Source: an uncultured Eubacteriales bacterium
GTDB taxonomy: Bacteria > Bacillota > Clostridia > Christensenellales > Aristaeellaceae
DNA length: 33,191 bases
Direction of reading: 5' to 3'
Assembly (NCBI GenBank): GCA_902785105.1
Contig: CACZXF010000064.1
Location: forward strand, 1-33,191
The first letter of the stretch is position 1. Each line of letters begins with the position of its first letter. The notes beneath the pieces were generated by a model. That model had not been told where the DNA came from and did not search any database. It was given only the letters and a program-made list of their open reading frames with translations. This document shows, one piece after another, positions 11,465 through 23,306 of the stretch. The translations under genes and the position numbers were made by a program.

Positions 11465-11579
11465 TAAGGACCTGTGCATAAATAATTCGTACAGAATGCG
11501 CAGGATGAATTCGTCAGCGCAAGGCGGAGGAGGGAGGCGTGCCGGGGCACGTTGACCGACGATTATGCACAGTTCCTAA
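11465..11579 (+). repeat. MITE-like element, copy 1 (109 bp, internally deleted)
   Basis: The element core is 11468-11576, flanked by TAA on both sides (11465-11467 and 11577-11579). Its first 95 bp and last 14 bp are identical to copy 2 at 23140-23293, but 45 bp present in copy 2 are missing. The ends are imperfect inverted repeats (GGACCTGTGCATAA and, inverted, GGAACTGTGCATAA). A CGTGCC/GGCACG hairpin sits inside at 11538-11551. It has no open reading frame, so any movement would depend on a transposase elsewhere. It lies between the cca promoter and its ribosome binding site. Confidence 0.8.
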
Positions 11580-11589
11580 GAGGCATTGA

Positions 11590-12945
11590 ATGAATACACA
11601 TGAACAGGATTTAAAGCTGTCCATTGAAATCGCCCGTGAAGTAAAGGCCGCGGGCGGGCGGGCGATGTATGTCGGCGGGATGGTGCGGGACGGGCTGATG
11701 GAGATTCCCTGCAAGGATATCGACATCGAGGTCTATGGATTGCGGCCCGCGCAACTGAAAGAGGTTTTGGCGAAGCTGGGAAAGGTGCAGGAATACGGGG
11801 CCAGCTTCGGGGTCTACGGGCTGATGCACAGCGCCATCGACATCGCCATGCCCCGGCGGGAGCGGTGCGTGGGCATCAAGCATACGGACTTTGAGGTGTC
11901 GGTAGACCCGGAAATGTCCTTCCATGACGCTACGCTCCGCCGTGATTTGACCATCAACGCCATGATGCGGGATGTGCTGACCGGCGAACTGGTGGACCTT
12001 TGGCACGGTCAGGAGGATTTGAGGGATAAAATCATACGGCACGTCGGGGATGAGACCTTCCCGGAGGACGCTTTGAGAGTGTTCCGGGCGGCACAGTTCA
12101 CGGCGCGGCTAAACGGGACGGTCGCGGCGGAGACGATGGCGCTTTGTCGGAGCATGAAGGTCGATGACATCAGCCATGAGCGGGTGTTTGACGAGCTGTG
12201 CAAAGCACTGTTAAAGGCGGAAAAGCCCTCCATATTCTTCCGGGTATTGAAGGAAATGGACCACCTGAAGGAGTTTTTCCCGGAGGTCGAGGCGTGCGTC
12301 GGGGTCCGGCAGAATCCGGTCCACCATCCCGAGGGGGACGTTTTCGAGCACACCATGCTGGTGCTGGACTGCGCGGCGGCGCTGAGGGCACATGCCCAGT
12401 GGCCGCTGGGCTTCATGCTGGCGGCGCTGCTGCACGATCTGGGGAAGATCGTCGCCACGGAAATTCAGCCGGATGGGAAGATCACCGCCTACGGGCACGA
12501 GGTCCAGGGGCTGGAGCTGTGCGAAAAGCAGATGCGGCGGCTGACCAGCCAGGCAAAGCTGATCGAGTATGTCAAGAATATGATGTGGCTGCACATGCGG
12601 CCCAACATACTGGCGGGCGGCCATTCCAAGAAGAAAAAGACGCGGCAGCTCTTTGATTTATCCGTTTGCCCGGAGGACTTGATTTTGCTTTCAAAGGCCG
12701 ACGCCTCAGGAAAGCTGGACGAGCCCTATGACGCGGAGAATGAGGCGTTTTTGAGGGAGCGGCTGGAGGATTACCGGAAGGTCATGGAGCGGCCCATGGT
12801 CACGGGGAAGGATTTGATCCAAGCCGGGTTGAAACCGGGGCCACAGTTTTCCGAATGGCTGGCTCGAGGGCGGCAGCTTCACTTCGCGGGGCTGGAAAAG
12901 CAGCGGGCCTTGCAGCAGATACTGATGGAGGCCGGAAAGGAATAA
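11590..12945 (+). CDS. cca: CCA tRNA nucleotidyltransferase with HD domain
   Basis: This 451-residue enzyme adds or repairs the 3' CCA of tRNAs using CTP and ATP. The class II nucleotidyltransferase head has the GGMVRD motif (GG 29-30, RD 33-34) and the metal-binding DIDIE at 43-47. RRDLTINAM at 118-125 and the EDALRVFRAAQF neck helix follow. An HD phosphohydrolase domain starts around residue 245 (HHPEGDVFEHT) with the His-Asp pair at 282-283 (LLHDLGK). This head-plus-HD form is common in Bacteria. The ATG at 11590 is preceded by AAGAGG at 11578-11583, which directly adjoins the end of the repeat element. A strong terminator follows. The C-terminus contains MVTGKDLIQAGLKPGP, normal for the family. 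Confidence 0.95.
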   Translation: MNTHEQDLKLSIEIAREVKAAGGRAMYVGGMVRDGLMEIPCKDIDIEVYGLRPAQLKEVLAKLGKVQEYGASFGVYGLMHSAIDIAMPRRERCVGIKHTDFEVSVDPEMSFHDATLRRDLTINAMMRDVLTGELVDLWHGQEDLRDKIIRHVGDETFPEDALRVFRAAQFTARLNGTVAAETMALCRSMKVDDISHERVFDELCKALLKAEKPSIFFRVLKEMDHLKEFFPEVEACVGVRQNPVHHPEGDVFEHTMLVLDCAAALRAHAQWPLGFMLAALLHDLGKIVATEIQPDGKITAYGHEVQGLELCEKQMRRLTSQAKLIEYVKNMMWLHMRPNILAGGHSKKKKTRQLFDLSVCPEDLILLSKADASGKLDEPYDAENEAFLRERLEDYRKVMERPMVTGKDLIQAGLKPGPQFSEWLARGRQLHFAGLEKQRALQQILMEAGKE

Positions 12946-13140: not shown

Positions 13141-13351
13141 TTGCGTTAGTATGGACAAAAAGCCGCTTCCGCGGCGAAAGTGCCTGAAATCAAAGGATTT
13201 TCGCAATGTGGCGATCATCGAAAATGCGATGAATCTTCACAGAGAAAATCACATTTAACAAAATATTTACCAAAGATTTCAAGGCAGTCCTCGCCGCGCC
13301 GCGGACAGAGCGTGTTCGCGGGGATGAATAAGATAAGGGGTGATTGAAGGC
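13141..13351 (+). promoter_or_regulatory. long untranslated leader of rpoBC
   Basis: About 210 nt separate the likely transcription start from the rpoB ATG, and no open frame with a ribosome binding site is seen. Possible stems are GCCGC/GCGGC (13162-13175), ATTTTCG/CGAAAAT (13197-13225), and two mutually exclusive pairings near the end: GTCC/GGAC (13287-13306) or CCGCG/CGCGG (13299-13321). The last would lie just before the ribosome binding site AAGGGGTGATT at 13335-13345. The stretch 13006-13105, before the promoter, shows nothing else. Confidence 0.5.
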
Positions 13352-17146
<3,795 letters not shown>

Positions 17147-17250
17147 GTTGAGTGTGGAGTTTTGAGTGTGGAGTGTGGCGTTGAGTTTGCCGCCCTTGTA
17201 CGGATGTGGCAAACTCTCCCCCATTCCCCGTTGCCTGCTCCCTATTGTAT
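17147..17250 (+). other. rpoB-rpoC spacer with short repeats and a hairpin
   Basis: Just after the rpoB stop, GAGTGTGGAGT-type units recur three to four times (about 17151-17182). A perfect 9-bp hairpin GAGTTTGCC/GGCAAACTC (17183-17191 and 17208-17216) follows. No T tract follows it, so it is not a classical terminator; it could stabilise or cleave the mRNA between the two subunits. Confidence 0.55.
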
Positions 17251-17272
17251 ATAAATGAAAGGAGAGAGCTCC

Positions 17273-20836
<3,564 letters not shown>

Positions 20837-23107: not shown

Positions 23108-23306
23108 ACGGACTCCCTCAGTCACCAAAGCGTGGCTAAGGACCTGTGCATAAATAATTCGTACAGAATGCGCAGGATGAATTCGTCAGCGCAAGGCGGA
23201 GGAGGGAGGCGTGCCGGGGCACGTTGACCGACGACAACGCAGCGATGGCGGATTCAGACAAGCAGAATGTATGAATAATTTATGCACAGTTCCTAAGGGA
23301 GTCCGT
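23108..23306. repeat. palindromic hairpin interrupted by the MITE-like element
   Basis: ACGGACTCCCT (23108-23118) is the exact inverse of AGGGAGTCCGT (23296-23306). The 154-bp element with one TAA lies between them. Removing it leaves an 11-bp stem with a loop of about 21 bases, so this looks like an older palindromic repeat into which the element inserted. CTCCCTCAGTCA-type repeats are frequent in gut Clostridia. A 24-codon TTG frame (23065-23139) ends at the TAA and is probably not a gene. Apart from these repeats and the GT2 promoter, the 22992-23328 intergenic region holds nothing recognisable. Confidence 0.6.
23137..23296 (+). repeat. MITE-like element, copy 2 (154 bp, full length)
   Basis: The core 23140-23293 is flanked by TAA at 23137-23139 and 23294-23296. 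The terminal inverted repeats are 32 bp (23140-23171 and 23262-23293) with 26 matching positions. The inner part holds a GC-rich AAGGCGGAGGAGGGAGG run and a CGTGCC/GGCACG hairpin (23210-23223). It is the same orientation as copy 1, with identical shared sequence, which suggests recent activity. It encodes no protein. Confidence 0.82.

Follow-up and report, generated by a model that had tools for sequence, protein, structure and literature searches.

A hairpin element, probably moved by ISAzo13-type transposases, with a core found in Actinomycetota and Bacillota and ends that appear to change

Two short noncoding segments in the DNA of an uncultured Eubacteriales bacterium, one of them a shortened form of the other and both standing between direct TAA triplets, raise the question of what moves such sequences, and of whether their interior has a part of its own in their spread. 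The window, that is, the whole stretch of 33,191 nucleotides analysed here, is contig 64 of a draft host genome (3.44 Mb, 131 contigs), and an initial annotation had described the segments as two copies of a MITE-like element. Comparison of the copies bears out this anatomy: their first 95 and last 14 bp are identical, copy 1 indeed lacks 45 internal bp, TAA stands in direct orientation on both sides of each, and a hand count returns the claimed match between the 32-bp inverted ends of copy 2 (Table 1), for which an automatic repeat search gives 30 nt at 87%. As had also been stated, no protein is encoded, the longest stop-free stretch within either copy being of 46 codons. Moreover, a 15-mer end pattern (up to 3 mismatches) has 4 matches in the window, the mean in shuffled sequences being 0.5 and none of 100 reaching 4, and the 158-nt strand 23139-23296 has a predicted fold of -79.4 kcal/mol (z = -11.1, with 0 of 200 shuffles as good). 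This fold spans the whole element, making it a single hairpin, beyond a mere pair of inverted ends. The explanation preferred here, to which we give a probability of about 75%, is that of a MITE hairpin which an ISAzo13-family transposase would move in trans, its core being kept for its own spread and its ends being exchanged.

Table 1. Features of the two copies in the window (window positions) and, in the last row, core elements with a foreign insert (genome, contig and locus handles)
Feature	Position	Strand	Remark
Target duplication TAA, left of copy 1	11465..11467	.	direct flank
Copy 1, 109 bp	11468..11576	+	deletion derivative, 45 bp of the 3' arm gone (ref 96-140), otherwise equal to copy 2
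Core remnant of copy 1	11521..11562	+	strand 1, apical stem-loop and GACCGACGA of strand 2
Target duplication TAA, right of copy 1	11577..11579	.	ATG start at 11590, 10 bp on
Target duplication TAA, left of copy 2	23137..23139	.	direct flank
Copy 2, full length, 154 bp	23140..23293	+	
Left inverted end of copy 2, GGACCTGTGCATAAATAATTCGTACAGAATGC	23140..23171	+	26/32 positions equal to the right end
Core strand 1 in copy 2, AAGGCGGAGGAGGGAGGC	23193..23210	+	
Apical stem-loop in copy 2, GTGCCGGGGCACGTT	23211..23225	+	covarying stem
Core strand 2 in copy 2, GACCGACGACAACGC	23226..23240	+	
Right inverted end of copy 2, reverse complement GGAACTGTGCATAAATTATTCATACATTCTGC	23262..23293	-	26/32 versus the left end
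Target duplication TAA, right of copy 2	23294..23296	.	direct flank
Core elements with foreign insert	G000:C13:40379-40614 (L042, L013) and L058 (G013:C52)		

A pair without further copies, or a likeness running on past the TAA, had been named in advance as signs of a simple duplication. What was found is that a 158-bp query matches 15 places in the host genome and that the sequence common to the two window copies ends at the TAA. Thirteen of these places are close apart from gaps (the copies of C19 and C52, both counted among them, are contig ends and possibly parts of one copy), and two, at C30:56537 and C3:11734, are diverged. The exact pattern TWAGGANCTGTGCATAAATWATT occurs 22 times in the host genome, with no occurrence in 27 other genomes of the genus and none when reversed. 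A 3-bp repeat, TAA or TTA (TWA), is identical on both sides of all ten fully resolved host copies, the one in C13 among them. Furthermore, empty sites in relatives, which the annotation had named as support, came to light in a search of the genus with the joined flanks of six insertions and on inspection of three sites as alignments; they concern three insertions, neither of the two window copies being among them. In G021, G025, G009 and G008, the C21 site lacks the element (77-85% identity), the span past the junction in G008 being deduced from alignment length. The C66 insertion sits in a copy of another repeat, other copies of which lack it, both in the host (96% over 168 bp) and in G001 (91%), the alignments running through without a gap. 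At C48, G015 appears to have an empty site, on weaker evidence (75%).

A full IS with the same ends, which the annotation had proposed to look for, was found in part: a matching end lies beside the C-terminus of an ISAzo13 transposase, but no whole copy is assembled in the host, where the IS is visible only as one end at contig borders. Contig ends are indeed to be expected at the copies of a repeated IS. Near the end or start of contigs C13, C29, C74 and C109, TWA is followed by GGAGCTRTGCATAAATTATT, which resembles the right end of the element, agreeing with the first 20 bases of that end at 19 positions in C29, C74 and C109 and at 18 in C13. In C109, this IS end adjoins the protein end YPKGIKVSDDELASVNIVGDNFHPNWNYTILPQTT, whose match to PF07592 (ISAzo13 transposase; E 1.8e-5) is only just above threshold, with 27.0 bits for a cut-off of 26.9. 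Complete ISAzo13 elements were read in the relative G027 (TTAA, then GGAACCGTC...GACAATTCC, then TAA) and in G473 (TAA, then GGAACTGTTAAAAAATAAC...TTAATTAACAATTCC, then TAA). Since both have ends of the form GGAAYYGT.. between TAA triplets, the present element is of ISAzo13 type in its ends and its 3-bp repeat. The near-identical copies, the TWA repeats at ten of ten resolved sites, the empty sites and the ISAzo13-type IS end support the MITE reading of the annotation, and the mover is probably, to judge by the sequence, a resident ISAzo13-family transposase.

The likeness to the ISAzo13 family (PF07592) lies in the GGANCTGT-like end sequence and in the TAA on both sides. In contrast to that family, the element lacks a transposase of its own; the core, sought with 4 (strand 1) or 3 (strand 2) mismatches, was not found in either of the complete ISAzo13 elements from G027 and G473 (L077 and L251). 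PF07592 was found in just 2 of 28 genomes of the genus, and was not found in G001 or G017, though both have many copies of the element; among 20 other core-bearing genomes, it was found in 4 and not in 16, all of these genomes being drafts.

The core, of about 50 nt, consists of AAGGCGGAGGAGGGAGGC, a stem-loop and GACYGACGACAACGC. A search for exact occurrences of AAGGCGGAGGAGGGAGGC-N(6-26)-GACYGACGACAACGC in the genome collection returned at least 119 stretches, several of them sharing a genome, of which at least 97 are from Actinomycetota and at least 22 from Bacillota by record title. Streptomyces, Actinacidiphila, Nocardioides, Kribbella, Actinomadura, Microlunatus, Gordonia, Williamsia, Frankia and others represent the former among the matches listed; Lachnospiraceae, Blautia, Clostridiales of the RUG series and Family XIII represent the latter. 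At the level of the whole element, the 158-bp query (E <= 1e-6) matches 11 of 60 relatives searched, host included, all within the genus, and many of these matches have the same middle with other ends. Four Streptomyces plasmids match the window copy in the core region only, and 21 match a Streptomyces version used as query. The strict pattern, sought in even samples of the two phyla, turned up in 1 of 398 genomes and in 1 of 100, in both cases the genome at the centre of the sample, so that the spread of the strict core is patchy. No phage record matches the query from S. niveus (Streptomyces), and two patterns gave 0 matches in viral contigs; phage carriage was rejected on these two results. 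Rfam yields no match at gathering threshold in the window or at nine related loci, and none for copy 2 at E up to 5. In open-licence PubMed Central papers, no description of the element was recognised and neither core string was found.

Covariation supports a folded core. The starting set was of 113 core instances, each with flanks of 14 nt; once 7 damaged ones had been removed, 62 of the remaining 106, hand-picked for diversity, were aligned. A two-helix structure (outer and apical stem) pairs 89.0% of the cells in these 62 sequences, as compared with 65.0% after shuffling (0 of 500 reach it), and the covariation score of the stems is 0.632 versus 0.202 (again 0 of 500), slid controls giving at most 0.161. 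Two of the five covariation measures are weak: 12 of 14 pairs are changed on both sides, for a shuffled mean of 9.9, with 15 of 500 shuffles reaching this value, and 37 further pair types are present, for 34.3 in shuffles, 47 of 500 reaching it. The letter conservation of the core is partly built in, most instances having been found by exact pattern; the stems are mostly free of this constraint. Core strands 1 and 2 lie opposite one another, forming an internal loop.

A covariance model found matches at E <= 0.01 in 28 of 291 genomes of the class and in 25 of 181 genera. Sixteen of these reach 30 bits, one of them (L317) reading like coding DNA, and the rows below about 25 bits look mostly like chance. 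The better matches are divergent members that keep, by eye, the outline AAGGCGGAGGA-NN-GA, stem, GA-N'N'-GACGACAACGC. In several of them, NN and N'N' are complementary by eye (GG/CC, AA/TT, AG/CT), with TT/TT in L312 and L315 as exceptions, and we read the flanking letters as candidate tandem G.A pairs on either side. A G-quadruplex as the cause of the G-rich strand was discarded, as the divergent L307, L308 and L320 lose the G runs and keep the hairpin layout (by eye). A kink-turn was likewise discarded for the internal loop since, as that motif is commonly drawn, the bulge would have to lie on the other side of the G.A pairs.

Outside the core, the ends vary. Among 112 distinct core instances, 91 have an end pair of at least 14/16, with a median length of 162 bp, and single-link grouping of the end pairs gives 23 groups differing in the outer 20 bp or so, although the ends were chosen automatically and some groups are divided or wrongly placed for that reason. 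The largest group, with ends CTAGGG..TGT, is from Actinomycetota (n=43); other classes are TWA followed by CGACCTCGGGGGCAAT or by GAGGYCGCGCGGATAGGTGG, TAA followed by GACCGACCGGC, AGGAGGGTGGTGTCAAAC, CTAGTACATTGTTGCA and the window type. Seventeen hand-picked elements form 136 pairs, of which 40 have inner arms (36 nt) that are alike, no more than 3 of 300 shuffles scoring as high. The outer 24 nt are dissimilar in 28 of these 40 pairs (more than 30 of 300 shuffles as high) and similar or nearly so in the other 12. L113 and L137, for instance, score 67 in the inner part (0 of 300 shuffles) and 9 in the outer one (109 of 300), and L158 and L123 score 48 and 10, the latter reached by 70 of 300 shuffles. 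Even a single genome of the class, G718, has two end classes on one core, namely TTA followed by GGAACAACTGAATAATAAA, and TAGTACTCTGTAAC; its nine copies with a measured end pair are 157-165 bp long. A shared middle with different ends across two phyla suggests one hitch-hiker that changed carriers several times, and our reading is that a single structured, nonautonomous element switches from one transposase to another by exchanging its ends. In addition, the Streptomyces loci L220 and L228 are coreless remnants, hardly more than two inverted ends; it is possible that such remnants are landing pads for an exchange of ends by nested insertion.

A second carrier type is possible in Streptomyces, in two genomes of which the ends of core elements resemble those of IS5-type (DUF4096, PF13340) elements, the IS5 family and subgroup being the names that we presume to apply to them. 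In S. niveus, the DUF4096 IS at L295 has CTAGGC..GTTTCGTTYGGATCA ends, both agreeing with the resident element end at 16 of 20 positions, and one end at L281 agrees at 15 of 20. For Streptomyces NBC_00572, the agreement is 17 of 20 at L286, close to a DUF4096 gene whose IS ends were not delimited separately. A match of 15/20 also arises away from any IS end (L276), the IS ends of that locus resembling those of Actinomadura elements (AGGGYCTGTTTCATAAG) instead. The other four of six hosts gave no convincing end match with DUF4096 loci, and for many of the end classes no IS is assigned. PF13340 was found in 7 of 8 core-bearing Actinomycetota genomes, but 5 of 14 controls give a match as well. 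A search for the core within the two DUF4096 elements read was negative, L295 holding just two weak strand-2-like matches with 3 mismatches each. The exact 20-bp S. niveus end, sought in ten genomes as an IS finder, was abandoned: it yielded core elements and shrunken remnants, and no IS was recognised among the loci read. CTAGG-type ends like those of IS5-type elements occur in some of the core family in Streptomyces, whereas the ends and 3-bp repeat of the window element belong to the ISAzo13 type. At L275, also in Streptomyces NBC_00572, the two 20-base ends of a core-type element lie directly against the end of a DUF4096 IS, with CTAG common to both.

Further indications on the core come from internal deletions. 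Nine other host copies are 98-100% identical to the full copy save for one contiguous indel each, all of them different, and several have deletions within the core. In G001, 14 loci were fetched and the 9 copies with both ends were used, five without both ends being left out; they comprise five deletions, one insertion and three copies without indel, at 97-100% identity. In host and G001 (L383-L394) together, 11 of 13 deletions end at ref 56-61 or 95-99, windows chosen after the data were seen, for a random mean of 2.5 and 0 of 20,000 trials reaching this. These are two opposite points of the core loop, and ref 62-94 is kept in all 13. No deletion was seen twice, although the ends are intact. 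Breaks could happen at the core loop, the deleted copies not spreading again. Alternatively, the deletions could have arisen in the sequencing library, where a polymerase may jump across so strong a hairpin and leave products that look like them, the intact copies having been collapsed in the assembly.

The preferred mechanism would begin with the DDE transposase of an ISAzo13-family IS binding the ends and moving the element in trans. One element lineage would retain the folded core and swap its ends, plausibly by nested insertion into an IS-derived repeat or by one arm being copied from the other within the folded strand. The core may be kept because its folded single strand, as DNA or RNA, would serve the spread of the element itself, and its participation in that propagation is the hypothesis that we favour. 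A more ambitious form, held only tentatively, is that one hairpin lineage in Actinomycetota and Bacillota hires transposases by end exchange, with the loop as its working site, possibly for a programmed break or processing.

Other explanations account for part of these observations. The core could be an RNA element acting at transcript level (terminator, processing or regulatory hairpin), kept because it benefits the host or softens insertions; the strong fold, the covariation and the conserved unpaired strands, as found in structured RNAs, would suit it, as would the several elements that lie, by eye, directly at stop codons or gene ends. Abutting would, however, also be explained by TWA and CTAG targets overlapping stop codons. 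Between tandem genes, 22 elements run along and 13 against (n=35), without significant orientation bias, and the spacers are convergent in 16 cases, divergent in 13 and tandem in 35 for a background of 73, 79 and 181, without enrichment; gene calls were crude, and 52 of 116 elements are unclassified (29 at locus edges and 23 inside called ORFs). A terminator or orientation-selected RNA was rejected on the lack of bias with this crude gene finder. With no Rfam match at the loci searched and core deletions in several host copies, a role for the host is unlikely. It is quite unlikely, in turn, that elements with different ends captured a common core independently and repeatedly, without any end exchange on one lineage. 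The difference of outer ends among classes is what such capture would leave, but the inner arms beyond the core are also alike across end classes, mostly within Actinomycetota (as in L113 and L137), and the recurrence by chance of 33 given bases in order is, by estimate, negligible.

An ordinary MITE, that is, an internally deleted ISAzo13 element with nothing special inside, would agree with ends nearly equal to those of the resident IS, with the short open frames of both copies and with the many copies. This reading is nevertheless highly unlikely: derivation of the interior by internal deletion is not what was observed, the core being absent from L077 and L251 and present with other ends in two phyla, and PF07592 was not found in 16 of 20 such genomes. 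Finally, the window copies could stem from the duplication of a single locus or from an error of assembly, to which palindromes are prone; beyond the two copies themselves, nothing else speaks for this, and the differing flanks, perfect target repeats, 15 places and empty sites already refute it, leaving a practically negligible probability.

Among known systems, the ERIC, BOX and REP palindromic repeats are hairpin repeats present in many copies, like the present element, and the REP/RAYT hairpins have a conserved GTAG foot and a partner TnpA-REP transposase. As these repeats are commonly described, the element differs from them in having 3-bp target repeats and IS-like ends. It shares with prokaryotic MITEs, as characterised in the review PMC10969869, its short length, noncoding nature, inverted ends, target duplications, stable fold and, probably, movement by an IS in trans; according to passages of that review, MITEs are mainly IS-derived and typically AT-rich (PMC10969869). 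Its main text uses none of the terms Actinobact, Streptomyces, Clostrid, ISAzo13 and "conserved core" (PMC10969869). Unlike prokaryotic MITEs in general, the element has an interior conserved across phyla and ends that differ. A MITE with an ISAzo13-type partner would alone be of a known kind, and the new part is the cross-phylum core with apparently exchanged ends. MITEs are usually taken to be decayed remnants of a single IS; a nonautonomous element with a conserved interior and with ends following different transposases would instead be a parasite of transposases in general, and conservation of that interior across phyla would mean that it does something. The family is directly testable, since a 33-base pattern finds it and its hosts include named strains (Streptomyces, Nocardioides, Actinomadura).

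Several minor observations accompany these results. Between the two window copies lie homologues of rpoB and rpoC (window 13340-20836; recognised by eye), and copy 2 sits within another small palindrome, ACGGACTCCCTCAG...CTAAGGGAGTCCGT (window 23108-23306). The C48 copy (G000:C48:6248-6396) lies in a gene reading, by eye, like a DUF559/Vsr-type endonuclease, which the insertion probably breaks. A second hairpin repeat, of about 168 bp and more abundant in the genus (G000:C66:14405-14709; L368, L369, L372), has the ends TACTAAATTGC[AT]TCTAA and carries a variant core, GCGGAGCGGAGGGAGGC..GTTGACCGAAGCAACGC; the joined-flank query matches all 28 genomes of the genus, and most of the rows listed are this second repeat. 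Lastly, a foreign insert beginning with AGGCGCGAAACCAGAGGTTT stands directly after GACCGACGA, at the same position of the core, in two core elements of two species.
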